The position numbers and the translations under genes were made by a program. Positions 785 through 15,357 of a DNA stretch of 64,000 nt are shown in pieces. The stretch is taken from the NCBI GenBank assembly GCA_902809825.1, contig LR778114.1, forward strand, positions 1,674,001 to 1,738,000, written 5' to 3'. Source of the DNA: Candidatus Hydrogenisulfobacillus filiaventi (GTDB lineage: Bacteria; Bacillota; Sulfobacillia; Sulfobacillales; R501). Position 1 is the first letter of the stretch, and each line of letters opens with the position of its first letter. Under the pieces are notes generated by a model that had not been told where the DNA came from, made no database searches, and saw nothing but the letters and a program-made list of their open reading frames with translations.

Positions 785-1693
785 ATGGAACTACGGACGC
801 TGCGGTATGCTCTGGAGGTGGCCCGGCAGGCGAGCTTCACCGGCGCCGCCCGTGCCCTGCATATTGCCCAGCCCTCGCTCAGCCAGCAGATTGCACGCCT
901 GGAGGAGGAGCTGGGGATGCCGCTCTTCTACCGCCGGGCTTCGGGTGTGGAGCCCACCCCCGACGGCCGCCGCTTCCTGGAGCAGGCGGAGCGGATCGTG
1001 CGCCTGGAGGAGGACCTGGTGCGGGAGATGCGGGAGCGCCGCGAAGGCATCGGGCCGGAACTGGTGGTGGGGGCCCCGGCCATCACCGGCGAGCACGTGC
1101 TACCGCCGGTGCTGGGCCGCTTTCAGAGCTTGTACCCCCGCACCCGCGTGCGCCTGGTGGAGGACTCCCCCCATGCCCTGGAGGCGCTGACCGCGCGAGG
1201 CCTGACCGACCTCTCCATCCTGCCGCTGCCGGTCGAGGATACCCGCCTCGCCATCCGGCCCCTGTTCACCGAACCCATCCTGCTGGCGCTGCCGCCGCAG
1301 CCGGCGGCCTGGATACCGGCGGGCATCCTGCCCCCGGCCGGAAGCCGGGTGGGGCTGGCGGCGGTGGCAGGAGCCCCCTTCATCCTGCTCAAGCCGGGTT
1401 ACGGGTTCCGGCAGACGGTGCTGGAGCTGTGCGCCGCCGCCGGCTTTCAGCCCCGGGTGGTGTACGAGACCAGTAGCATCGAAATGGCGCAGTCCTTGGT
1501 GGCCCATGGCCTAGGCGTCACCCTGGTGCCGGCCATGGTCCGCCGGCGGGGCTCCGGAACCCGGCCCCACTACCGGCGCCTGCAGGAGCTGCCGACGCGC
1601 ACCCTGGCCCTGGTCTGGGCCCGCGACCGCTACCTGAGCCTGGCGGCGCGGGCGTTCCTGCAGCTGCTGCCACAGGCCGGCGCCACCGGTTAA
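785..1693 (+). CDS. LysR-family transcriptional regulator, divergent from leuC
   Basis: This 302-aa protein has the usual LysR layout. A winged helix-turn-helix occupies about residues 1-60, with the recognition segment AQPSLSQQIARLEEELG, followed by a linker helix and a two-lobed periplasmic-binding-like effector domain at about 90-295. Its position back to back with leuC suggests control of leucine genes by a pathway intermediate, but the ligand cannot be read from sequence. The ribosome site is GGGAG, 7 bases before the ATG. Its stop overlaps the stop of the next, convergent gene by 4 bases. Confidence 0.9.
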   Translation: MELRTLRYALEVARQASFTGAARALHIAQPSLSQQIARLEEELGMPLFYRRASGVEPTPDGRRFLEQAERIVRLEEDLVREMRERREGIGPELVVGAPAITGEHVLPPVLGRFQSLYPRTRVRLVEDSPHALEALTARGLTDLSILPLPVEDTRLAIRPLFTEPILLALPPQPAAWIPAGILPPAGSRVGLAAVAGAPFILLKPGYGFRQTVLELCAAAGFQPRVVYETSSIEMAQSLVAHGLGVTLVPAMVRRRGSGTRPHYRRLQELPTRTLALVWARDRYLSLAARAFLQLLPQAGATG

Positions 1694-2532
1694 AGGGCGT
1701 CGGGGGCACCGTCCAACGCCTGAAAGCCGTAGCGCCGGTAGACATCCTGCCCCTCCGGCCCGGTCAGGTAGTCCAGGAAGGCACGGGCCGCCGCCGCATG
1801 CGGCGCCCGGCTGCAGACAGCCGCCCAGTAGCGGCCGGAGGGATTGGCCTCCGCCGGCAGGGGGACCGGCTCCACCGCCCGCCCGGTGGTCACCGCCCAG
1901 CGGGCCTCGCTGAGCCAGACCGGACCCACGTGGGCTTCGCCGGCCTCCAGCCAGGCCACCGTCTGGCGGTGATGCACGGTGGTGACCCGGGTACTGCCGG
2001 CCCGCAGCTTTTCCTCAAACACCCGCTGCGCCGCGGCCGTCCCCAGGGCGGCCGTAATCCCGGCCCGCACCAGGCGGGCGATGCCCTCGGTGGCGGGGTT
2101 GGGCAACGCCACCACCACCTCCGGCCGCAGGAGGTCGTCCCAGCCCCGGATGCCAAGGGGATTGCCCCGCGTCACCAGCAGCGCGAGCCGGTTCTGGGCG
2201 TAGGCCGCCGGTTCCCCCACCAGCCCCGCCCTCCGGGCGGCGTCCATCTCGCCCCGTCCGGCGGCAAACACGTCCGGGGCCACGGACAAGGTCAGACTGC
2301 CGACGCGCAAGGATCCAGCCTGCAGTTGCCCCAGCAGGACCCCCGGCGGGAGGGTCTCGTAGTAGACGCTGCGCACCGCCGGATAAGCCCGGCGGAATCC
2401 TTCCAGCAGCTCCGGCAGCACCATGAACTGGTTACCGTTCATGAACAGCACCAGATCGGCCGCCAGGGGATCCCCCACCAGGTCCACCATTTCATCGAAG
2501 CCCGGCAGGTCCAAAAACGGCACCTCGGCCAT
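1690..2532 (-). CDS. ModA-like type 2 substrate-binding protein lacking a signal peptide
   Basis: This 280-aa protein looks like a type 2 periplasmic-binding fold of the molybdate/tungstate or sulfate kind. Late motifs fit such proteins, for example ARAFLDYLTGPEGQDVYRRYGF near the C-terminus (residues about 252-272). The start chosen (2530-2532) has a strong GGGAGGAGG site. That start gives MAEVPFLDLPGFDEM, with no signal peptide, lipobox or transmembrane segment, so the protein is predicted to be cytoplasmic. No permease lies beside it, although an ABC ATPase follows divergently. It may be a ligand sensor rather than a transporter component. The ligand is unknown. Confidence 0.65.
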   Translation of the reverse strand: MAEVPFLDLPGFDEMVDLVGDPLAADLVLFMNGNQFMVLPELLEGFRRAYPAVRSVYYETLPPGVLLGQLQAGSLRVGSLTLSVAPDVFAAGRGEMDAARRAGLVGEPAAYAQNRLALLVTRGNPLGIRGWDDLLRPEVVVALPNPATEGIARLVRAGITAALGTAAAQRVFEEKLRAGSTRVTTVHHRQTVAWLEAGEAHVGPVWLSEARWAVTTGRAVEPVPLPAEANPSGRYWAAVCSRAPHAAAARAFLDYLTGPEGQDVYRRYGFQALDGAPDAL

Positions 2533-2562
2533 GGCCGGCCTCCTCCCTGTCTGCTGCGGCCT

Positions 2563-2571
2563 ATTGTAGCA
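2563..2571 (-). promoter_or_regulatory. Extended -10 promoter for the binding-protein gene
   Basis: The minus strand reads TGCTACAAT, an extended -10 element (TGn plus a TATAAT-like hexamer), about 30 bases upstream of the start at 2532. No convincing -35 is present, which is normal for extended -10 promoters. Confidence 0.4.
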
Positions 2572-2642
2572 GACCGGGGGATGCCGGGCCGGAGCGGGTT
2601 GGGCTAGAATGGGGCCGGACATCGCGGCAGAGGAGGACGGGC

Positions 2643-2936
2643 ATGCGACGTGCGCGGGTGCTGGTGGCCGGCCGGGTGCAGGGCGTCGGCTTCCGGGCGG
2701 CGACCCGGGAACGGGCCCTGGCCCTGGGCTTGACCGGCCGGGTGGCCAACCGTCCCGACGGGCGGGTGGTGGCGGAGGTGCAGGGACCGGAGGCGGCGGT
2801 GGCCGCCTTCCTGGCCTGGGTCCGCACCGGTCCGCCCTGGGCGCGGGTCGAGCGGGTGGAGGCGGAGGACCTGCCGCCGGACCCGGCCGAGACCCGCTTC
2901 GAGATCCGGCCCTTCCCCTGGGGGGGTGCCTCATGA
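2643..2936 (+). CDS. acyP: Acylphosphatase
   Basis: This is a 97-aa single-domain acylphosphatase, the normal length for the family. It hydrolyses carboxyl-phosphate bonds of acyl phosphates in the cytosol. The signature VAGRVQGVGFRA (about residues 8-19) carries the phosphate-binding loop and catalytic Arg, and VANRPDGRV (about 34-42) supplies the conserved Asn. A GAGGAGG site precedes the ATG. The stop overlaps the next ATG as ATGA, so the ABC ATPase is translationally coupled to it. Confidence 0.92.
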   Translation: MRRARVLVAGRVQGVGFRAATRERALALGLTGRVANRPDGRVVAEVQGPEAAVAAFLAWVRTGPPWARVERVEAEDLPPDPAETRFEIRPFPWGGAS

Positions 2937-3775: not shown

Positions 3776-4699
3776 TTACAAGGCGGCCGGTTGTGCCCGG
3801 CCGCTCGCCAGGGCATCCAGGAACCATCGCCCCAGGGGATGGTCCTGCACCTCCGGGCGGGCCACCACCGTGAAGGCGCGCGTCAGGGGCAGGCCCTCCA
3901 CCGTCACCATCGCCAGACGGCCTTCCGCCACCTCCCGGCGCACGGCCCAGGGGGACAGGAAGGACACCCCCAGGCCGTCCGCCACCGCCCGCTTGATGGC
4001 CTCTATGCTCCCCAGCTCCTGATACCGCAGGCGCTCGAGCGGCAGGCCCGCCGCCTTCAAGGCCGCCAGCACCGTCTCCCGGGTGGCGGACCCCGGCTCC
4101 CGCAAGAGCAGGCAGGGCTGGGTCAGCTCCTCCGTCGTCACCCGGCCGCGGCCTGCCCACGGATGCCGGGGCCCGACCACCAGCGCCAGGGTATCGGCCA
4201 TCCAGGGCCACTGCCGCCAGCAGCCGCCGGGGGTGTACGCCCCTTCCAGGAGGGCGACATCGATCTCCCCCGCCTCCAGGCGGGCCAGGATGGCACTACT
4301 GTTGCCGATCTGCAGATGGATGCGCACCTCCGGCCGCGCCTGCCAGAGCTCACCCAGCACGGCCGGGACCACATAGTTACCCAGCGTCTGGCTTGCCCCC
4401 AGGCCCAGGCTAAGGCGGTCGGTGTGGGCCACCGACTCCAGCGCCGCCCGGGCCTCCTGCACCAGCCCCTGGATATGGAGGGCGTAGTCCAACAGCTTGC
4501 TGCCCGCCGGGGTGAGCTCCACCATCTTAGAGGTGCGCCGGAACAGCCGCACCCCATAAAAAGCCTCCAGGCTCTGAATGTGAGCACTGACCGTCGGTTG
4601 CGCCAGGAACAGACGTTGCGATGCGCGGGAGAAACTGCGTTCCTGAGCCACGGCGATGAATGTCTGCAGATGAATAAGATTAAGTCCGGATGCCTGCAT
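3776..4699 (-). CDS. LysR-family transcriptional regulator (CysB/CbbR-like layout)
   Basis: This is a 307-aa LysR-type regulator. The DNA-binding domain is in residues 1-65 (LAQPTVSAHIQSLEAFYGV recognition helix) and the effector domain in about 90-300. The start at 4699 gives a standard N-terminus, and the 37 residues upstream in frame look non-native. A GAGGAAGGGA site lies just before. Its target is unclear: divergent from it, after 283 bases, is an uncharacterised membrane protein. Ligand unknown. Confidence 0.85.
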   Translation of the reverse strand: MQASGLNLIHLQTFIAVAQERSFSRASQRLFLAQPTVSAHIQSLEAFYGVRLFRRTSKMVELTPAGSKLLDYALHIQGLVQEARAALESVAHTDRLSLGLGASQTLGNYVVPAVLGELWQARPEVRIHLQIGNSSAILARLEAGEIDVALLEGAYTPGGCWRQWPWMADTLALVVGPRHPWAGRGRVTTEELTQPCLLLREPGSATRETVLAALKAAGLPLERLRYQELGSIEAIKRAVADGLGVSFLSPWAVRREVAEGRLAMVTVEGLPLTRAFTVVARPEVQDHPLGRWFLDALASGRAQPAAL

Positions 4700-4901
4700 G
4701 CATGCGTCCCTTCCTCGGCTCCTCTCCCCTGCGCCCGGACCGTCCGGGCGCCCACGCGGCCGGAAACCAGGAATGACACCATCTTCATTTAACATCAGGT
4801 TCAAGCGCAAATCAAACTTTTCTGCCGGGAGTCCTGGTCCTTTTTACCCGATCCGGCCGCCGGTCGGCCGGCTCCGGGCGGCGGCCCGGCCCGGCCTGGG
4901 G

Positions 4902-5548: not shown

Positions 5549-6946
5549 CTAAGCGCCCGGGCCGAAATCGGGACCGGTCCCCCACACCCCCAGGCTGGCC
5601 TGCAGGCGGCACTGGTCGCACAGCGGCGGTTCCGGCAGCGGGCGGCCCAGGCGCTCCGCCAGCACCGCCAGCTGGCGGCGGGTACCGAGCACACTGCCAC
5701 AAGACCGGCAGCGCACCACCCCCTCCTCCACCAGGGCGCGGGGACCCGCCGTCAGCACCTGCGGCGAGGCCGGCTCCACCGTCAGCGCCCCCTCCGGACA
5801 GACGGCGGCACAGCGCCCGCAGCCGAGGCAGGCGCCGGCATCGGCGGCCAGGACCCATGCTTCCGGCCCCGCGCCGGCCAGGCCCAGGGCCGGGGTGGGG
5901 CAGGCCCGCGCACAGGCGGCGCAGAGGGTGCAACGCTGCCCGTCCACCCTCACCTGCCATGCCGGCCACCCCGGCTCCGGCGCCAGGGCCGGCGGCTCGA
6001 CTCCGGCAGGGAACCGCCAGGCGGCCAGGTCCGTCGCCAGGGCCCGCACACGGCCGCTCCAGGGCGCAGCCGCCGCCCCGGCGGCGGGTTCCCCGGGCGG
6101 CGCCGGCTCTCCCGCCTCCAGCCAGGCCAGCCAGGCCAGAGCGCGGGCGGCCGCCGCCTGCCGCGGACACCCCGGATCCGGACAGCGGGCGGTGACGGGA
6201 CCGCTGCGGCGCAGGCGCGCCAGCTGGGCGGGAGCCAGCGCGCCCACACACGGCACCGGCAGCAGCACCTCCCCCTCCGCCTCCGGGCGGTCGTCGCGGG
6301 GGCAGACCGCCCGCAGGGCCCCCTGCGGGTCCGTCGCCCGCACCCGGGCCAGGGCATCCACCGTGGCATCACTCAGGTCCCGCACCGTCATGGCCCCCGT
6401 GGGGCAGGCGGCGGCACAGGACCCGCACCCATCACAACGCTCTCCCGGCGCCGGCCGTCCCTCCGGCCAGGTGAGGGCCTCGCGGGGACACGCGGCGGCG
6501 CAGACCCGGCATCCCTGGCCCGCCGCACAACGGGCCGCCTCCAGGGCCGGCCAGGGGCGGAAGCGGCGCGGCCCGGCCCAGGCCTGCAGCAGGTCCCGCC
6601 GGCTCATCGTGCGGCCCTCCCCCGCCGCCGGCGCCTCCAGCAGGGCCGGGGAGGTCGCCAGGCGCACGGCCGCCAGGCTCAGGCGCAGGCGGTCATGCCC
6701 GTCCCCCTGCAACCGCACCGCCCGGAAGGCTAAGGGATGAACCCCGGGCGGGGCCGCGGGGGGCGGGCCCTCCCTCCAGGCCACGACCAGGCCGTCCCAC
6801 GCGCGGGCCTGCGTCGGATCCCAGCGTCGCCCCACCCCCAGGGGCCCGGCCCCGCCCGCCTGCACCCAGCCGGCGGTCCAGGCCTCCACCTCCGCGACCA
6901 GCTCCTCCCCCGCTGCCGTCTCCGGAATCACCACCGCCACCCGCAT
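5549..6946 (-). CDS. Multicluster [4Fe-4S] protein with MvhD-like segment
   Basis: This is a 465-aa soluble electron-transfer protein of unknown partner. After about 130 residues without cysteines, two ferredoxin motifs follow (CRVCAAACP preceded by an extra Cys, then CDGCGSCAAACP). Next comes a segment with PCVGAL and CPDPGCP that resembles the MvhD/HdrA-associated hydrogenase iron-sulfur domain. Two more ferredoxin motifs follow (CTLCAACARACP, CLGCGRCAAVCP), and the protein ends in a CRSCG...CDQC zinc-ribbon-like pair. No signal peptide or membrane helix is seen. It is divergent from the molybdoenzyme operon across 223 bases and has a strong AGGGAGG site. Context suggests it feeds or drains that respiratory complex on the cytoplasmic side, but this is inference. 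Confidence 0.7.
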   Translation of the reverse strand: MRVAVVIPETAAGEELVAEVEAWTAGWVQAGGAGPLGVGRRWDPTQARAWDGLVVAWREGPPPAAPPGVHPLAFRAVRLQGDGHDRLRLSLAAVRLATSPALLEAPAAGEGRTMSRRDLLQAWAGPRRFRPWPALEAARCAAGQGCRVCAAACPREALTWPEGRPAPGERCDGCGSCAAACPTGAMTVRDLSDATVDALARVRATDPQGALRAVCPRDDRPEAEGEVLLPVPCVGALAPAQLARLRRSGPVTARCPDPGCPRQAAAARALAWLAWLEAGEPAPPGEPAAGAAAAPWSGRVRALATDLAAWRFPAGVEPPALAPEPGWPAWQVRVDGQRCTLCAACARACPTPALGLAGAGPEAWVLAADAGACLGCGRCAAVCPEGALTVEPASPQVLTAGPRALVEEGVVRCRSCGSVLGTRRQLAVLAERLGRPLPEPPLCDQCRLQASLGVWGTGPDFGPGA

Positions 6947-7011
6947 GCGCCGGACCTCCCTTCACTCACTTCCACTATAGGGTGCGGGCCCGGCCCCGCC
7001 GTGGCGGCGAC

Positions 7012-7049
7012 TATCGGATCTTCCCATACTCGCCCGGCCCCCTCCGATA
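7012..7049. promoter_or_regulatory. Spaced inverted repeat between divergent redox operons
   Basis: TATCGGA (7012-7018) and TCCGATA (7043-7049) are perfect inverted arms 24 bases apart. They lie inside the 223-base gap between the Fe-S gene and the NrfD gene. This could be a shared operator or a hairpin. A minus-strand TATAGT (6979-6974) is a possible -10 for the Fe-S gene. Confidence 0.3.
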
Positions 7050-7169
7050 AGCGGGACCCCGCTGGCCTGCTACCCTCAGAGACAACCGGGGCCTCCATCC
7101 CGGCGACGGCCGTCCGCCCGGCTGCAACGGCGGCCGGAACCTGTCCGCACCGCCTAGGGAGGGACGTTC

Positions 7170-8111
7170 ATGCCTGCATCCTTTTATCTCATGCATTGGG
7201 GGCTATCCTGGCTGCCGCCCGCCTACCGGGACGCCTGGAGCTGGAAGGCCGGGCTGGCCCTGTTCTTCGCCGGGTCCTCGGCGATGGTGCTCTTCCTGTC
7301 CGCCTGGGAGGACTGGCGGGGCGAACACCCGCGCCTGGCTCACACCGGCATGCTGGCCGGCCTGGTCGGCCTGGTGGTGATGGGGATCCTCTTCATCTGG
7401 GACCTCGGCAACCCGCTCCGCTTCTGGGAGCTCATGGTGTACGGCTGGACCCAGCGCCTCGGCAGCTCCTGGATGCCCTGGGGGGTTCTCTTCATGGTCC
7501 TCCTGGGCCTGGCGGCGCTGGTGGAGGGCTGGGGCATCCGGGAGGACAGCTGGCGCAAGCCCGCCGCCGCGGCCACCATGCTCTTCGGGCTGCTGGTCAC
7601 CACCTACTCCGGCTTTGAGCTGGCCGACACCTCCATCGCCCTCTGGAACACTTACCTGCCCCTGGTCTTCCTGACCGTGAGCCTCTCCATCGCCGGCGCC
7701 TTCGTGCCGGTGCTGGCCGGGCAGATCGGGGACGAAGGAGCGCGCCAGCGGCTCGTTGCCCGCTATCGCACCCTCACCCTGGTCAGCCTGGCCTCCACGG
7801 CCCTGGTGCTGCTCTTCTGGCTTTACACCGCCGGGCACCTGGACGGCGGCCGCGCCCTGCCCACGGTGGACGCGCTGCTGGGCGGGTCCCTGGCCGGCTG
7901 GTTCTGGGCGGCGGTGCTGCTGGGCTTGGCGGCGGCCGCCCTGCTCTGGCGCGCCTCCGACCGCCTGACCGTCCAGCCCGCCATGCGGGGGGCCATCTTT
8001 GCCCTCACCGGCTCCAGCGGCCTCATCCTGCGCCTGCTCATCGTCCTGGCCGGCTACCACTTCTTTGCGCCCTTGAGCCCCTTCGGGGTGACCCACATCG
8101 AGCTCCCCTAA
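7170..8111 (+). CDS. NrfD/PsrC-like membrane anchor subunit of a molybdoenzyme complex
   Basis: This 313-aa polytopic protein has about eight or nine hydrophobic segments spread evenly through it. It has the WDLGNPLRFWE-type motif near residues 75-85 that is typical of NrfD-family quinone-interacting subunits. It would tie the periplasmic-side catalytic and Fe-S subunits to the menaquinone pool. It is the first gene of the operon, with a GGGAGGGA site, and is followed 28 bases later by the catalytic subunit. NrfD proteins may or may not pump protons; sequence alone does not say. Confidence 0.88.
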   Translation: MPASFYLMHWGLSWLPPAYRDAWSWKAGLALFFAGSSAMVLFLSAWEDWRGEHPRLAHTGMLAGLVGLVVMGILFIWDLGNPLRFWELMVYGWTQRLGSSWMPWGVLFMVLLGLAALVEGWGIREDSWRKPAAAATMLFGLLVTTYSGFELADTSIALWNTYLPLVFLTVSLSIAGAFVPVLAGQIGDEGARQRLVARYRTLTLVSLASTALVLLFWLYTAGHLDGGRALPTVDALLGGSLAGWFWAAVLLGLAAAALLWRASDRLTVQPAMRGAIFALTGSSGLILRLLIVLAGYHFFAPLSPFGVTHIELP

Positions 8112-8139
8112 GGGGAACCGCTAAGAGGGAGGTCCTAGG

Positions 8140-11100
8140 ATGGCCATCACACGCCGTACGTTCCTGAAGGTGGCGGGGGCCGCCAGCGGCACCGCCGCCG
8201 CCCTGGGCAGCGGCCACTTCCTGTTCGGCAGCCTGTTCGCCCGCGCGGCCGGGCCCGGCGGCAACGCCGAAACCACCGCCGCCGACCCCAAGCAGGACCG
8301 GGTGGCCTTCGCCGGCTGCTTCACCTGTCTGGGCCGGTGCACCCTGCAGATCCAGTACACCGAGAACAACATCCCCCGCTACGTGACCGGGGACATCCAC
8401 GGCACCGTCAACGAGGGCGGGGTGTGCGCCCTCTCCACCGCCTCCCTGCTGCACTACCTGAGCCCGGCCCGGCTGCGCTTCCCCCTGCTGCGCCGGCCCG
8501 GCGCCGAGCGCGGCAGCGGCAGCTTCGTGCGCATCCGGTGGGCTGACATGTTCGACATCCTGCTCCACGGCGACCAGGCCGCCTACCTGAAGCGCCGGGG
8601 CTGGAAGTACGGGTTCCTGGGGATGAAGGCCATCCGCGAGCGCTTCCCGGAGAAGCTGGTGTACTTCACCGGCCGCGACCAGTACAACCCCACCGAGAAC
8701 ACCTTCTTCGCCAGTGCCTTCGGCACCCCCAACCAGGGCGCCCACGGCGGGTTCTGCTCCGCCACGGTGGCCCTGGGCGGCACCTACACCAACGGCGGCA
8801 CCTGGTGGGAATACGGCGGCATGGATGTGGAGAACTCCCGGGTGGTGGTCATTGCGGGCATGACCAACGACCACTTCCCTACCGGCACCCGGCGGGTGAT
8901 GACCAAGATCCGGAGCCGGGGGGCGCGCTTCATCTACATCGCCCCCGACCGCTTCCCCAACCTGGGGCCCATCTCCGACCAGTGGATCGCCCTCAACCCT
9001 GGCACCGACGGGGCGCTGGTAATGGCCACCATGCATGAGCTATGGCGCCTGCACCGCCAGGATCCCCAGGGCCGGCCCTACATCGACGAGGACTTCCTGA
9101 CCTGGTACTCCAACTCGCCGTGGCTGGTGATGACCAACCCCGACGGTACCGTCGACCCGCCTGCAGCCGGCAACGTGGGCCTGTTCGCCCGGGTCAAGAA
9201 CAGCAAGGGCGAATGGACGCCGGCCGTGATGGGCAGCGACGGCAAGGTCTATCCCTTCGACGAGGTGCCCTGGCAGAGCGGGGTGACGCCCTCCCTGACC
9301 TATGCGGGCAAGGTGACCGTGCCCACCGGCCCGGACAACCCGGCCCCCCTGACCGTCCCTGTCACCACCGCCTTCAATCTCCTGACCGCGCGGCTGGCCG
9401 ATCCCCGCTGGGCACCGGAGGCGGTCTCCCGCATCACCGGGGTGCCGGCCTCCACCATCACTGAGTTCGCGCGGTACCTGGGGGACATCGCCATGCGCCA
9501 GGCGGAGTGGATCCCGGGTGCCTGGACCGACTACCTGGGCCGTAAGCACAAGGGATTCATCGGCCGGCCGGTGACCCTCTACATCATGCGGGGGGTGGCC
9601 GCCCACTCCAACGGCTTCCAGACCGCCCGCGACTACATGCTGCTGCTGTCCCTGCTGGGCGCCATCGACGCCCCGGGCGGCTGGCGCTACAAGACCCCTG
9701 CCCCCTGGCCCATCCCGGACGGGGCCTACTGGCCGGGCTACGGCTTCCCGCCCGACCCCCGCGCCCGCCAGGCCTCCGGCGCCACCGGCGGAACCGTAAT
9801 CCAGGAGTTCATCCGCAATGACGGCACCGTGTCCGCCACCGCCGTCCACGGCCGCCAGCCGGCGGTGATGCAGACCACCAAACCCCTCATCTACACCCCG
9901 GACCAGCTGGTGGTGGACGAGAACGGGCTGCCGGTGCTGATCGACCGCGCCTTCAGCTGGGACGCCCCCCTGGGCCTGCACCGGGTGTGGACGGCGGTCA
10001 ACTACGACTGCGGCCACGAATTCCCCATGCGGCCGGAGATGCTGCTGTGGCACATCACCAATCCCTACTGGGACAACTCCTACGACCTCGACAAGGACCT
10101 GGCCCTGGTGCGCAAGAAGTCGTCCGACGGGCGCCACACCATCCCCTTCGTGGCCCTGGTCGACACCTTCTACGGCAACAGCGTGCCGTTCGTGGACCTG
10201 GCCATCCCCGACCTGACCTTCTATGAACGGTTCGGGGTGCACAGCCTGCTCGACCGCCCCATCTCCACCGTGGACGGTCCCGCCGACAGCATCCAGTGGC
10301 CGGTGCTGCCGGCCCTGTACGGGGTGCATTCCTGGGCCGACACCGAAATCCGGCTGGGGGAGATGCTGGGCCTGAAGGCCTTCCTCAACCCGGACGGCAG
10401 CCCGCTCTACCCCAAGGGCTACGAGGACTTCATCTGGAAGTGGCAGGCGGCGCCGGGCATCGGCCTGTTGGGCGGCGGGCGCGGCAACGGCACCAGCATC
10501 CTGAAGGGCGCCCCCAACCCGGGGCAGGTGGACCTCTACACCTCTCCCCGCGGCATCCGCGCCTACCAGGGCTACAGCCGGGACAAGGCCTTCCCGGGCC
10601 TCGCCACCTATCCGGTGCGCAACGGCACCTACCCAGCCGGGGTCAACCCCGGGCAGCAGAGCGTCGGTCACGCCCAGTTCCGGTACACCCTGCCGGTCAA
10701 CATCCGCTACCGCCGCAACGTCAACCGGGAGTACCTGACCTGGGCCCACAGCGTAGGCCTCATCCCCTACGCCAAGCCCGTGCCCACCCAGGTCTACTCG
10801 GAAATCATCCAGAAATTCCGGCTGGCGGGCTACGGCAAGTGGGGCGGGGCCAACGCCTACTTCCTGTCCATCGGCCGCAAGGACCTGGCGGTGAAGAACG
10901 CCGCCCCGCCTACCGACGCCCGGGGGCAGGCGCTGCGCAAGATCCTGACCCAGCTCTTCGACCCCCTGCCCGACTGGTATGCGCCCCTGGAATGGGCCGA
11001 CGACGGGTCCAACCCTGCCGAATACCCCATCATCACCGAGCACCGGCACGTCAACCCCTGGTTCTACCATCACTGGGAGAACCACAATCCCTGGCACCGG

Positions 11101-11643
11101 CCCCTGCTGCCCTTCTCGCCCCTCTACCTGAACCCGGAGACGGCGGCGCGCTACGGGCTCAAGACCGGCGACTGGGCGGAGTTCGCCTCCCGCGGCGGGG
11201 AGAAGGTGCGGGCCATGATCGAGGTCACGGAGGCCACCCGGCCCGGCGTGATCTGGTACTGGAAGGCCCGCAACGTGCGGCCGGGCACCCTGGCCATCTC
11301 CCCGGACTCGCCCGAAATCCGGCAGGGGATCATGTTCAACGACATCTATTCCTACCAGCGGCCCCGGAGTTGGGGCGGCGACCTGCCCGGCCAACCCGGC
11401 CAGGGTCTACTCAACCTGGATCCCTTCACCGGGCAGACCGCCTGGGGCGACCTGCGCCTCAAATTCGTCGGCAAGTCCGCCGTCCAGGAGTCCTACTACG
11501 GGGACGCCAACAACCTGCTGAAGGCGGTGGCGGACCACAGCTTCCAGCCGGCGGCCGACCGCATCCCCACCCTGCGCTTCTCCGCCTACCAGCCGCTGGA
11601 GACGCTGGGCCTCACCTGGTACACGAAGGGCGAGCCCAAATAG
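8140..11643 (+). CDS. Tat-exported molybdopterin oxidoreductase, catalytic subunit (PsrA/TtrA/ArrA type)
   Basis: This 1167-aa enzyme begins with a twin-arginine signal (RRTFLK, residues 5-10, then a hydrophobic stretch), so it acts outside the membrane. The N-terminal [4Fe-4S] cysteines are C60, C63, C67 and C96. The molybdenum ligand is most likely C206 in GGFCSATV, with H202 four residues before and R179 27 before. A Cys ligand and this spacing point to the polysulfide/tetrathionate/arsenate reductase clade rather than DMSO reductase (Ser) or Nar (Asp). The C-terminal part (about 960-1100) holds the pterin-binding barrel. It is longer than typical PsrA or TtrA (750-1050 aa), with inserted segments around residues 340-420 and 520-640. 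Substrate and direction cannot be fixed from sequence. Confidence 0.88.
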   Translation: MAITRRTFLKVAGAASGTAAALGSGHFLFGSLFARAAGPGGNAETTAADPKQDRVAFAGCFTCLGRCTLQIQYTENNIPRYVTGDIHGTVNEGGVCALSTASLLHYLSPARLRFPLLRRPGAERGSGSFVRIRWADMFDILLHGDQAAYLKRRGWKYGFLGMKAIRERFPEKLVYFTGRDQYNPTENTFFASAFGTPNQGAHGGFCSATVALGGTYTNGGTWWEYGGMDVENSRVVVIAGMTNDHFPTGTRRVMTKIRSRGARFIYIAPDRFPNLGPISDQWIALNPGTDGALVMATMHELWRLHRQDPQGRPYIDEDFLTWYSNSPWLVMTNPDGTVDPPAAGNVGLFARVKNSKGEWTPAVMGSDGKVYPFDEVPWQSGVTPSLTYAGKVTVPTGPDNPAPLTVPVTTAFNLLTARLADPRWAPEAVSRITGVPASTITEFARYLGDIAMRQAEWIPGAWTDYLGRKHKGFIGRPVTLYIMRGVAAHSNGFQTARDYMLLLSLLGAIDAPGGWRYKTPAPWPIPDGAYWPGYGFPPDPRARQASGATGGTVIQEFIRNDGTVSATAVHGRQPAVMQTTKPLIYTPDQLVVDENGLPVLIDRAFSWDAPLGLHRVWTAVNYDCGHEFPMRPEMLLWHITNPYWDNSYDLDKDLALVRKKSSDGRHTIPFVALVDTFYGNSVPFVDLAIPDLTFYERFGVHSLLDRPISTVDGPADSIQWPVLPALYGVHSWADTEIRLGEMLGLKAFLNPDGSPLYPKGYEDFIWKWQAAPGIGLLGGGRGNGTSILKGAPNPGQVDLYTSPRGIRAYQGYSRDKAFPGLATYPVRNGTYPAGVNPGQQSVGHAQFRYTLPVNIRYRRNVNREYLTWAHSVGLIPYAKPVPTQVYSEIIQKFRLAGYGKWGGANAYFLSIGRKDLAVKNAAPPTDARGQALRKILTQLFDPLPDWYAPLEWADDGSNPAEYPIITEHRHVNPWFYHHWENHNPWHRPLLPFSPLYLNPETAARYGLKTGDWAEFASRGGEKVRAMIEVTEATRPGVIWYWKARNVRPGTLAISPDSPEIRQGIMFNDIYSYQRPRSWGGDLPGQPGQGLLNLDPFTGQTAWGDLRLKFVGKSAVQESYYGDANNLLKAVADHSFQPAADRIPTLRFSAYQPLETLGLTWYTKGEPK

Positions 11644-11688
11644 GCCGCCCTTCCCCCCGGCGGGGGCATGCCCGAAAAGGAGGGTGCC

Positions 11689-12405
11689 ATGCAGTTAGCG
11701 CTCGTAACCGACCTCGACAAGTGCGTGGGCTGCGATGCCTGCCAGATGTCGTGCAAGGTCTGGAACACCAGCGGTCCCCACGGTCCCCTGCCCGACATCA
11801 ACCCCTGGGGTGCCAAGCCCTGGTCGATGTACTGGCTGCGGGTCCTGCACTTGGAACAGAACAAGTTCCCCGACACCAAGACCACCGCCCTGCCCCTGAG
11901 CTGCTTCCATTGCCGGGAGCCGGCCTGCGTCAAGGTCTGCCCGGTGGGGGCCATGCACAAGCGGCCGGAGGACGGCGTGGTGCTGGTCGACTACGACAGG
12001 TGCATCGGCTGCCGGTATTGTGTCAACGCCTGTCCCTACGGCAACGTGAACTTCGACCCCATCCAGGGGGTGGCCAAGAAGTGTACCCTCTGCATCGACC
12101 GGGTCTACAACACCGACCTGCCCGAATACGAACGGGTGCCGGCCTGCGTGCGCTCCTGCCCCACCGGCGCCCGCATCTTCGGGGACATCGATAATCCCCA
12201 GAGCGACGTGCGGCAGTACATCGAGCGCTACGACGGCTTCGTCATCGGCCCCAGCTTCGGGACCCGGCCTTCCAACCATTACCTGCCGCCGCGGGGCCCC
12301 AGCGGGCCCGACGCGCGCTGGCCGGATGAGACCCGGGTGCAGGACTTCGGGCACCGCAGCGGCGCTGAGGACGTCATCACCGAGGCCCTGCCGCATAAAA
12401 AGTAG
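11689..12405 (+). CDS. Four-cluster ferredoxin-like electron transfer subunit (PsrB/TtrB type)
   Basis: This 238-aa protein carries four [4Fe-4S] motifs in the order usual for DmsB/PsrB/TtrB subunits: CVGCDACQMSC near the start, CFHCREPACVKVCP, CIGCRYCVNACP and CTLC...CVRSCP. It wires the molybdoenzyme to the NrfD-like anchor. I chose the ATG at 11689 because it has AAGGAGGG just upstream; an earlier in-frame ATG at 11668 has no ribosome site. It has no signal of its own, so it probably crosses the membrane by hitch-hiking on the Tat substrate. Confidence 0.92.
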   Translation: MQLALVTDLDKCVGCDACQMSCKVWNTSGPHGPLPDINPWGAKPWSMYWLRVLHLEQNKFPDTKTTALPLSCFHCREPACVKVCPVGAMHKRPEDGVVLVDYDRCIGCRYCVNACPYGNVNFDPIQGVAKKCTLCIDRVYNTDLPEYERVPACVRSCPTGARIFGDIDNPQSDVRQYIERYDGFVIGPSFGTRPSNHYLPPRGPSGPDARWPDETRVQDFGHRSGAEDVITEALPHKK

Positions 12406-12435
12406 GGCCCGGACGGGAAAGGCGGGGATGGGACC

Positions 12436-13128
12436 ATGGTGGAGGAACCGGAACGGGAGCTGGACGGCGGCCCGGCGGCCGAGCTGGCGATGGCCCGGGC
12501 GTGGCTGTGGGACTGGCTGGCCGGGATTTTCAGCTATCCCTTCAGCCTGGAGGATTTCCGGAGCCGGGTCACCGCCAAGGTCCCGGCGGTGACGGAGGCA
12601 GCCGCGGCCCTGGCCGGTTGGGGCTACACCCTGGAGGGCCTGGCGGAGGCGGCGCGGGCCGCGGCGGCCATCGGCGGGGAGGAGGAGCTGGCCGACCTGG
12701 AAATGGAGTTCGTGCGCCTGTTCGACACCCCCTCCGCCGGCAACCGCTTGCATCCGACAGAGTCGGTCCAGCGCCAGGGCCACGTGGACCTGGTGCTGGC
12801 CGGCGAGCTCGATCGCCTCTACCGGCGCTGGGGCCTGCAACCGGCCCCCGACGCCGGGGAGATGGCCGACCATGCCAGCCTGGAGAGCGCCTTCCTCAGC
12901 TACCTGGCGGTGGAGGAGGCCCGCCTCCGCGCCGCGGGCCAATCCGCGGCGGCGGTGGAGCAGGCCCAGGCCGGGCTGCTGAGCGACCACCTCCTGCACT
13001 GGATGCCGGGATGGTGGCGGGCCGTGGCCGAAACCGCCCGCCATCCCCTGCTGGCCGCCGCCGCCCGCATCGGGCCGGGCCTCCTGGCCGGGGATGCCCG
13101 CCTGTTCGGGCTGCGGCAGCCGGTGTAA
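12436..13128 (+). CDS. TorD/DmsD-family molybdoenzyme chaperone
   Basis: This 230-aa, mostly helical cytosolic protein closes the molybdoenzyme operon. The motif LEMEFVRLFDTP (about residues 94-105) matches the conserved E-x-x-R-L-F region of TorD-like chaperones, and HPTESVQRQGH follows. Such proteins bind the Tat signal of their partner and hold it for cofactor loading. The ATG follows GGCGGGGATGG. Position and family together make service to the 1167-aa enzyme very likely. Confidence 0.85.
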   Translation: MVEEPERELDGGPAAELAMARAWLWDWLAGIFSYPFSLEDFRSRVTAKVPAVTEAAAALAGWGYTLEGLAEAARAAAAIGGEEELADLEMEFVRLFDTPSAGNRLHPTESVQRQGHVDLVLAGELDRLYRRWGLQPAPDAGEMADHASLESAFLSYLAVEEARLRAAGQSAAAVEQAQAGLLSDHLLHWMPGWWRAVAETARHPLLAAAARIGPGLLAGDARLFGLRQPV

Positions 13129-13202: not shown

Positions 13203-13550
13203 TTAACCTCCGAGGTCGACCTCCAGGAACCCGTCGACGTCCCGGGCGGGATAGGTGGGGAGAGGGAGGGACAGGTTCGACTCACCGCAGGACCGTTCCG
13301 GATGCACAGCAGCCGGCTGCAGCAGCGCCCCGGTGCGGAGGTCATAAGCCGCCCCGTGCGCCGGGCAGACCGCCCGGTAGCCGTCCGTTTCGGTCAACAG
13401 CACGCAGCCCATGTGGGCGCAGACCGCCTCTATGGCATAAAGCTGCCCTTCCACCCGTGCCACCAGCACCGGCCGCCCCTGGACCCAGGTCACCACCGCA
13501 GGGCGGCGATCAAACAAGCGGGTAGACAGGCCGACCCGTTGAAAGGCCAT
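13203..13550 (-). CDS. Small Rieske [2Fe-2S] protein
   Basis: This 115-aa single-domain Rieske ferredoxin has CAHMGC and CPAH box motifs (C-x-H then C-x2-H, about residues 44-66). They ligate a [2Fe-2S] cluster with two Cys and two His; the extra Cys of box I and the lack of one in box II argue against the respiratory bc1 type. There is no signal or membrane anchor, so it is a soluble electron carrier or oxygenase-type ferredoxin. The start at 13550 has AAGGAGG 11 bases upstream. It follows the GH13 gene by 85 bases. Partner unknown. Confidence 0.85.
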   Translation of the reverse strand: MAFQRVGLSTRLFDRRPAVVTWVQGRPVLVARVEGQLYAIEAVCAHMGCVLLTETDGYRAVCPAHGAAYDLRTGALLQPAAVHPERSCGESNLSLPLPTYPARDVDGFLEVDLGG

Positions 13551-13635
13551 GAAAGCGGTCGCCTCCTTGCCGGATGTGGCCGCCTGCCGGCGGACAGACC
13601 CATTCTGGTCCTCCGGCACGGAGCCCGCAAGCGGC

Positions 13636-15357
13636 TCAGGTCCCCCTGCCGCCGCCCGGGATCCATTCCCAGACCGCCGCCCCGCCCGCGGGTAGCACAT
13701 CCTCTTCCGCCGGCGCCTCCGGGACCGCCAGCCGGCGGCGGGCCCCCGGCGGCAGAGGAACCCGGCGCGAGGCCGGGCCCGTCTGCACCGCCACCCGCAG
13801 GGCGGGACCCTCCCCTTCCGGTAGACGGTCGTACAGGAGCAGACCCCGCGCCGGCAGCACCCGCAACCCGCCCCCGATAAGGGCCGGCGCCGTCCGCCGC
13901 AGGCAGGCCAGCGCCCGCACCAGGCGCACCAGGGCGTGCCGCCGCCGGCGGGGGTCCCACCACATGCCCGCCCGGCACCCGGGATCGGGCCCGCCGGTCA
14001 TCCCGGCCTCGTCGCCGTAATACACCACCGGGATGCCCGGCCAGGTGAACTGCACCACCAGCGCCCGCTCCACCGCGGTCACATCTCCGGCCGCCGCGGT
14101 CAGAACCCGCTCGGTGTCGTGGCTGCCCAGGAGCAGGAAGGAGGCGCGGGCGGCGGGCTCAGGGTAGGCAAACCACAGGCGCAGCAGGCGCCCGCCCAGC
14201 TCCTCCGGGTCCAGCCGGGCCTCCAGCAGCGCCGCCTTCACCGCCTCCCGCCAGCGGTAGTGCATGACCCCGTCCCACTCCCCGCCCGCCAGCCAGGGCA
14301 GGGCGTCGTGCCAGGCCTCCCCCACCAGCAGCGCATCCGGGCGCTCCGCCTTCACCCGCTCCCGGAGCCGGCGCCAGAAGGCGTGGGCCACCTCATCCCC
14401 GACGTCCAGCCGCCAGCCGTCGACCCCGGTCTCCCGGATCCAGTAAACCGCCACCTCCAGGAAGTAGTCGGCGGCGGCGGGATGGGCCAGGTTGAGGCGG
14501 GGCATGGAGGCCACCCCGTCCCCGAAGGTCTCATAGTTGGGGGGATCCGTCTGCACCCGCTCCCCGTGGATGACAAACCAGGGCCAGTACGGCGAGGCAG
14601 GCCCCGCCCGTGCCGCCTCCCGGAAGGGGCGGAAGCCGCTGCCGCTGTGCTGGAAGACCGCGTCCAGCAGCACCCGCATCCCCCGCCCGTGGGCCGCCTC
14701 CACCAGCTCCGTCAGGTCGGCCTTGGTGCCGCAGGCGGGGTCGAGGTCGAAATAATCGCAGGGATCGTAGCCATGCGGGGACGCCGCCCGGAAGATGGGA
14801 GTCAGGTAAAGGAGGTTGACCCCCAAGGCCTGGAGGTAGGGGAGCCGCCGCCGGATCCCGGCCAGACTCCCGCCCAGGCGGGTGGCCGGTCCGGGGGCCG
14901 TGTCCCAGGGGTCGGCGCCGGGCGGGGAATGGCCCGGGCGGGTGCGCGCAAACCGGTCGCACAGGATCGCGTAGCCCACCGCCCCGGCGGTCCAGGCCGG
15001 AACCTGGAGCCGATCCTCCGCGTGCAGGTAGGGCAGCCGGAAGGGGACGGCCGCTGCCCGGTCGCCGGCCGTCCCCTCCTCCCCCAGCCAGGTCCGCCCG
15101 CCGTCCGCGGCCTCGGCTTCAAAGCAGTAGCGCAGGCGGCGGGTGGGCACCGGGACCCGTCCCTCCCAGTAGTCCCACTCCAGGTCCTGCCCCGCCCGGT
15201 CGAGGGCCGCCGCCCGCCAGTCCCACCCCCGATAGGGGTCGCCGAAGTGCACCCGCACCCGCCGGGCCTCGCCCCGCCCGGTGCGCAGACGCAGCCGCAC
15301 CGTCTCGCCGCTAAGGGCGTAGGCATCGGGGACCTGGCTGCGATGGGCGAAACGCAC
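13636..15357 (-). CDS. GH13 glycoside hydrolase (neopullulanase/cyclomaltodextrinase-like), cytoplasmic
   Basis: This 573-aa alpha-amylase-family enzyme has an N-terminal beta domain (about 1-120) of the type found in neopullulanase, maltogenic amylase and cyclomaltodextrinase. A TIM barrel follows with all four conserved regions: D232-AVFQH, GWRLD with nucleophile D318, GEAW with acid/base E347, and S412-H-D414. It ends in a C-terminal beta domain. There is no signal peptide, so it probably acts on imported or stored maltodextrin in the cytosol. The start is a GTG 6 bases after GGGAGG. It begins 43 bases after glmS and may share that transcript. The exact specificity is not deducible. Confidence 0.85.
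   Translation of the reverse strand: MRFAHRSQVPDAYALSGETVRLRLRTGRGEARRVRVHFGDPYRGWDWRAAALDRAGQDLEWDYWEGRVPVPTRRLRYCFEAEAADGGRTWLGEEGTAGDRAAAVPFRLPYLHAEDRLQVPAWTAGAVGYAILCDRFARTRPGHSPPGADPWDTAPGPATRLGGSLAGIRRRLPYLQALGVNLLYLTPIFRAASPHGYDPCDYFDLDPACGTKADLTELVEAAHGRGMRVLLDAVFQHSGSGFRPFREAARAGPASPYWPWFVIHGERVQTDPPNYETFGDGVASMPRLNLAHPAAADYFLEVAVYWIRETGVDGWRLDVGDEVAHAFWRRLRERVKAERPDALLVGEAWHDALPWLAGGEWDGVMHYRWREAVKAALLEARLDPEELGGRLLRLWFAYPEPAARASFLLLGSHDTERVLTAAAGDVTAVERALVVQFTWPGIPVVYYGDEAGMTGGPDPGCRAGMWWDPRRRRHALVRLVRALACLRRTAPALIGGGLRVLPARGLLLYDRLPEGEGPALRVAVQTGPASRRVPLPPGARRRLAVPEAPAEEDVLPAGGAAVWEWIPGGGRGT

Follow-up and report, generated by a model that had tools for sequence, protein, structure and literature searches.

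The heat- and acid-loving hydrogen bacterium "Candidatus Hydrogenisulfobacillus filiaventi" R50 encodes a Tat-exported molybdoenzyme that belongs to a branch related to SoeABC and is accompanied by an NrfD-type membrane anchor, a chaperone and a SreD-type polyferredoxin. SoeABC and SreD are already known. Tentatively, at somewhat less than an even chance, we read the complex as an outward-facing, membrane-anchored relative of SoeABC, probably a sulfite:quinone oxidoreductase, matured with the help of a NapF-like polyferredoxin; what we infer here is the substrate, the direction of catalysis and what the polyferredoxin does.

R50 comes from Pantelleria, where it lives in acid and oxidises hydrogen (PMC10080006); its genome is one contig of 2,570,337 bases. 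The window, that is the whole stretch of 64,000 nucleotides that was analysed, holds the cluster as five genes, all backed by homology, with D on the minus strand followed by C, A, B and E on the plus strand (7170-13128). A sequence-only reading of this DNA had proposed an NrfD-like anchor, a Tat-exported subunit of 1167 aa, a four-cluster subunit and a chaperone, and the open reading frames and family matches agree with it. The features are:

5549-6946, minus strand: D, SreD-type polyferredoxin, 465 aa, with four [4Fe-4S] motifs, a four-cysteine middle segment and a CxxC...CxxC tail
6587-6604, minus strand: SRRDLL motif of D, residues 115-120, NapF-like, twin-arginine-like but internal
6947-7169, no strand: divergent intergenic region between D and C, 223 bp, probable shared control region
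7170-8111, plus strand: C, NrfD-type membrane anchor, 313 aa (PF03916, 4.7e-15)
8140-11643, plus strand: A, Tat-exported molybdopterin catalytic subunit, 1167 aa, type I branch of the bSreA/SoeA clade
8149-8169, plus strand: Tat motif TRRTFLK, A residues 4-10 (sequence motif)
8317-8427, plus strand: N-terminal [4Fe-4S] motif of A, C60-x2-C63-x3-C67-x28-C96 (alignment)
8755-8757, plus strand: C206 of A, probable Mo ligand, with R179 and H202 (alignment)
11668-12405, plus strand: B, four-cluster Fe-S subunit, 245 aa (family match and tree)
12436-13128, plus strand: E, TorD/NarJ-type chaperone, 230 aa (PF02613, 1.6e-18)

A sigma-70 promoter scan of the 223-bp region gave no consensus and nothing better than chance. 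Adjoining the cluster and convergent with E is a gene for a Rieske-type protein (13203-13700, minus strand), which among NCBIfam models comes nearest to that of archaeal sulredoxin (9.2e-19, under the model cut-off); this is possibly a further gene with archaeal kin. Upstream lie a LysR regulator (3776-4810, minus strand), nearest to a selenium-metabolism-associated family, and a solute-binding protein (1690-2934, minus strand) resembling sulfate/molybdate-binding proteins; a tie of both to sulfur or molybdate supply is possible.

The molybdoenzyme had been labelled unassigned, a label that no longer holds. A falls inside the bSreA/SoeA clade in a careful tree (100/100) and in a second tree with Ttr, Arr and NarG added (100 SH-aLRT), and this clade comprises SoeA and the Aquificaceae Sre proteins (100/100). 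Within it, A and three Sulfolobaceae proteins (type I; loci L055, L196 and L197, each from a different genome) form one clade (100/100), which is joined next by type II (100/100), a form of about 1440 aa present in 22 of 31 Sulfolobaceae genomes and read at loci L198-L200. The closest relative among the matches listed is L055, with 53% identity over residues 1-1161, and the only bacterial carrier of type I among them is one hydrogen-oxidising bacterium, R50 itself. The searches covered 154 genomes of the class, a sample of 398 genomes of the phylum, 229 genomes of the archaeal class and a GTDB contig scan, whose listed matches left out G738 and G756. On plasmids, the full-length relatives of A were only of the cytoplasmic Soe type (31-33%). 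The enzyme sits in a clade with known enzymes, as a tree had been proposed to decide, but on an exported branch in which we found no characterised member.

As to other identities, Psr/Phs, Ttr, Arr and archaeal Sre are ruled out for A by the tree and the active-site sequence. SreA-type proteins join Phs/Psr (100/99), which A does not, and Ttr and ArrA-like proteins lie elsewhere, the labels of the ArrA and TtrA references being approximate since these score under the curated cut-offs. Against the NCBIfam models for PsrA/PhsA, TtrA and ArrA the scores of A are far under cut-off. Our tree agrees with the published placement of archaeal SreA with PsrA/PhsA and of bacterial SreA with SoeA, the latter given as cytoplasmic (PMC10100899).

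Compared with SoeABC (Allochromatium vinosum, Sulfobacillus and the R50 paralog at 537 kb), the window has the same catalytic clade (100/100), the same GRDQ/HGGFC site and a four-cluster B subunit on one branch with theirs. However, the catalytic subunit of SoeABC and bSreA is described as cytoplasmic and without Tat signal (PMC10100899, PMC6620896), whereas A carries TRRTFLK and measures 1167 aa against about 950-1000 aa in SoeA. The window further differs by its NrfD anchor in place of DmsC and by the added chaperone E and polyferredoxin D: C matches PF03916 (NrfD), the SoeC proteins of L036, L040 and L042 match PF04976 (DmsC), and between C and the SoeC set there was no detectable match. 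The cytoplasmic SoeABC loci show no Tat motif, a DmsC-type anchor in all three tested and no D. Cytoplasmic members of the clade adjoin xsc in Azospirillum, and those of Sulfobacillus were induced on sulfur, with sulfite oxidation proposed as their role (PMC5114278).

The exported Soe-like operons of Sulfolobaceae (types I and II) resemble the window in their five components, inserts and Tat signal; in archaeal type I the order is C-A-B-E-D in one direction, whereas D of the window is divergent. Archaeal SreABCDE of the Acidianus ambivalens type likewise has a Mo subunit, an Fe-S subunit, an NrfD anchor, SreD and the chaperone SreE, a five-component definition that includes the last two (PMC3189178), but its SreA is of Psr/Phs lineage with another active-site sequence (PMC10100899). 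Operons taken here as true Sre (type III) were recognised by the order A-B-C-D-E, by their neighbours and by absence from Sulfolobus sp. A20. No type III operon was found in A20 (G742), for which lack of SRE has been reported (PMC5127849); some type III copies stand beside NiFe-hydrogenase-type genes recognised by eye. Aquifex aeolicus SreABC (bSreA; Aquificaceae proteins of L066, L076 and L083) has the superclade and the active-site motif in common with A, but is not exported and forms a separate subclade.

C206 of A aligns with Cys173 of Thermus PsrA, the Mo ligand of that enzyme, and R179, H202 and C206 are invariant in the alignment of 33 Soe-type proteins. The proposal of a cysteine ligand at C206 with H202 and R179 nearby, and with it that of an oxyanion-type active site in an exported respiratory molybdoenzyme, is supported, C206 being the probable Mo ligand. 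GRDQ...HGGFC is common to every SoeA protein sampled; as a sequence likeness it favours an oxyanion substrate, with sulfite as the best guess. The R...H...C pattern is also present in ArrA-like proteins, and a fold search of A gave ArrA as best match, at 16% identity, all matches being family-level only. Inserts had been placed at about residues 340-420 and 520-640. Relative to SoeA inserts are real, but the larger ones lie at about 147-160, 520-580, 800-850 and 898-925, and these are common to the window, type I and type II.

In the tree B pairs with type I B (93/89), type II B joining next (98/94); C and E are each closest to their type I Sulfolobaceae counterparts, with type II next. For A and B this points to a common or transferred origin with Sulfolobaceae, whose hot acid habitats are similar. 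Transfer of the whole five-gene set from Sulfolobaceae was rejected: it suits the other four genes, but a sister position of D to the D of type I is rejected (AU p = 0.008). The tree places D of this locus among bacterial D proteins (99/99), so that it may have been swapped, tentatively so in view of composition differences.

D is a polyferredoxin of the SreD type, known from the operon of the archaeal sulfur reductase. Its homology to D of L055 extends along most of the protein (25%, E 4e-27). It had been described as a divergent 465-aa protein with four ferredoxin motifs, and four [4Fe-4S] motifs are indeed present (C140/146/149/153, C171-181, C339-349, C373-383), together with a middle segment of four cysteines (C215, C233, C255, C260) and a CxxC...CxxC tail. 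The segment called MvhD-like gave no match with Pfam FlpD. Nor is D foreign to Sre clusters, from which the sequence-only reading did not know it: SreD is a polyferredoxin of these operons, described in papers from 2011 to 2021 as of unknown function (PMC3189178, PMC8551704), and R50 has a second D copy inside a true Sre-type operon. The cysteines are largely kept across the D family, with the exception of the type of about 1440 aa; in the type II operons read (L198-L200, about 6-18 kb), D is without C140, C146, C149, C181 and C376, and two extra small genes stand near it. A two-sequence structure model of D was useless (pLDDT 36.8).

D is associated with exported operons. Besides types I, II and III, further exported operons of the class carry a member of its family. 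At E <= 1e-8, a D gene stands no more than 10 kb from A in all three type I loci and in 18 of the 22 type II loci, all eight type III loci read have D (one of them broken), and a full-length D adjoins nearly all exported Sulfolobaceae operons read. R50 has two D genes, each adjoining an exported operon. Beside cytoplasmic Soe, a full-length D was found at none of 53 loci longer than 15 kb. The association of D with the exported enzyme, for which a co-occurrence check had been proposed, is genuine. The same pattern is reported for T. tenax, where sreA1 with a Tat signal has D and E and sreA2 without Tat has neither (PMC3189178). The association is not universal: exported Ttr-like operons with a chaperone have no D, so some exported enzymes do without it. 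In one Sulfolobaceae genome (G743; L205, 8955-10298) SreD is cut by an in-frame TAG while the remainder of the sre operon looks intact. In another Bacillota genome (G285; L212, 10436-13546) a molybdoenzyme operon distantly related to Soe has two adjacent D-like proteins.

Several traits bring D close to NapF. This cytoplasmic protein with four clusters binds NapA and, in Rhodobacter sphaeroides, is required for Fe-S assembly of NapA, although in E. coli and Wolinella deleting napF matters only marginally (PMC10609526). In D an SRRxLL motif precedes the first clusters, with R116/R117 nearly invariant in 13 D proteins, and E. coli NapF starts with VKIDASRRGILTG, a motif of the same type; both proteins carry four Fe-S clusters and accompany a Tat-exported molybdoenzyme. 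D matches the NapF profile over the first two clusters (61 columns, 96.3%). Against the NapF family TIGR00402 it scores 39.7 bits at a cut-off of 102.2, so that it is not a NapF member by score, and its ferredoxin domains resemble many other families to about the same degree. D is moreover about three times longer than NapF and has the four-cysteine middle segment and the CxxC...CxxC tail in addition. The motif, the profile match and the role of NapF on NapA favour a maturation role by analogy: D is most likely a maturation partner and resembles an assembly factor rather than a novel path for electrons. That SreD-type proteins in general are dedicated Fe-S maturases, analogues of NapF, for several unrelated Tat-exported sulfur molybdoenzymes of Archaea and Bacteria is possible, if on balance somewhat doubtful.

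In the proposed mechanism, chaperone E would assist the cytoplasmic maturation of A, and folded A and B would be exported together by Tat; TatC is encoded in the R50 genome. The NrfD-type C would hold A-B and exchange electrons with the quinone pool. The likeliest substrate is sulfite or bisulfite, which would be oxidised on the outer side of the membrane under acidic conditions. D would stay in the cytoplasm, outside the catalytic electron path, and would help, prior to export, to load the Fe-S cluster of A or to protect it.

The direction of catalysis is not fixed by phylogeny, since the clade of A includes the sulfur reductase of Aquifex, which reduces S0, polysulfide and tetrathionate (PMC4378227, PMC10100899). 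The exported complex could accordingly work like Aquifex aeolicus SreABC, with H2-derived quinol reducing elemental sulfur, polysulfide or tetrathionate outside. Aquificaceae proteins in the superclade with an identical active-site motif, and a D and E composition in common with the archaeal S0 reductase operon, speak for such a reductase; yet R50 already has a true Sre-type operon, and the type II sister occurs in 22 of 31 Sulfolobaceae genomes, including that of A20, which is without SRE (PMC5127849), so that we regard a reductase as unlikely. An arsenic enzyme, or more generally one acting outside on another oxyanion such as arsenite or thioarsenate, appears very improbable: a Soe-like second cluster is arsenite-induced in Thioalkalivibrio (PMC6620896) and ArrA-like proteins have the R...H...C pattern and provide the best fold match, but A is far from them in the tree and that match is family-level only.

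A different role for D, as a carrier that feeds the membrane complex with electrons of cytoplasmic ferredoxin or NAD(P)H and so drives chemistry on an external substrate, would suit its richness in clusters, its conserved extra four-cysteine segment and its best solved-structure matches, MvhB, FwdF, HdrA and formate hydrogenlyase subunit 6. The ferredoxin similarity is generic, however, the cluster includes no flavin, NAD or hydrogenase partner gene, and D is missing beside cytoplasmic Soe. Its grouping with bacterial D proteins and not with D of its own A type, tentative for the composition bias, makes D look interchangeable among enzyme types, as would befit an accessory protein. An electron route that starts at a cytoplasmic donor, put forward in the sequence-only reading, found no support, distribution and NapF resemblance fitting maturation at least as well, and we consider it improbable.

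R50 has four molybdoenzyme loci, at about 537, 991, 1401 and 1682 kb, whose order and spacing match the published annotation of soeAB twice (R50_v2_0555/0556 and 1810/1811), psrABC (1049-1051) and narG (1497) (PMC10080006). By position, A and B of the window are very probably R50_v2_1810/1811, the second soeAB pair. The paralog at 537 kb is a cytoplasmic SoeABC with no D beside it. The locus at about 991-998 kb (G000:C1; L044, 8416-15231) is the other exported operon of this genome and belongs to the true Sre type, with A, B, NrfD anchor, chaperone and its own D; it was labelled a thiosulfate reductase (PMC10080006). Thiosulfate, tetrathionate and sulfide failed as electron donor for R50, and growth on sulfite was not reported (PMC10080006).

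With two exported and one cytoplasmic sulfur enzymes side by side, the R50 genome is open to their comparison. SoeABC is described as oxidising sulfite in the cytoplasm; the exported branch would place the chemistry of sulfite or SO2, which is abundant in hot acid habitats, outside the cell. The distribution of D hands SreD a testable role, and the broken SreD of G743 is a natural test of essentiality. If the reading of SreD as a maturase is true, it would account for a sulfur reductase operon gene to which the literature assigns no function, and the exported Soe branch would add an extracellular path of sulfite chemistry to the known one.
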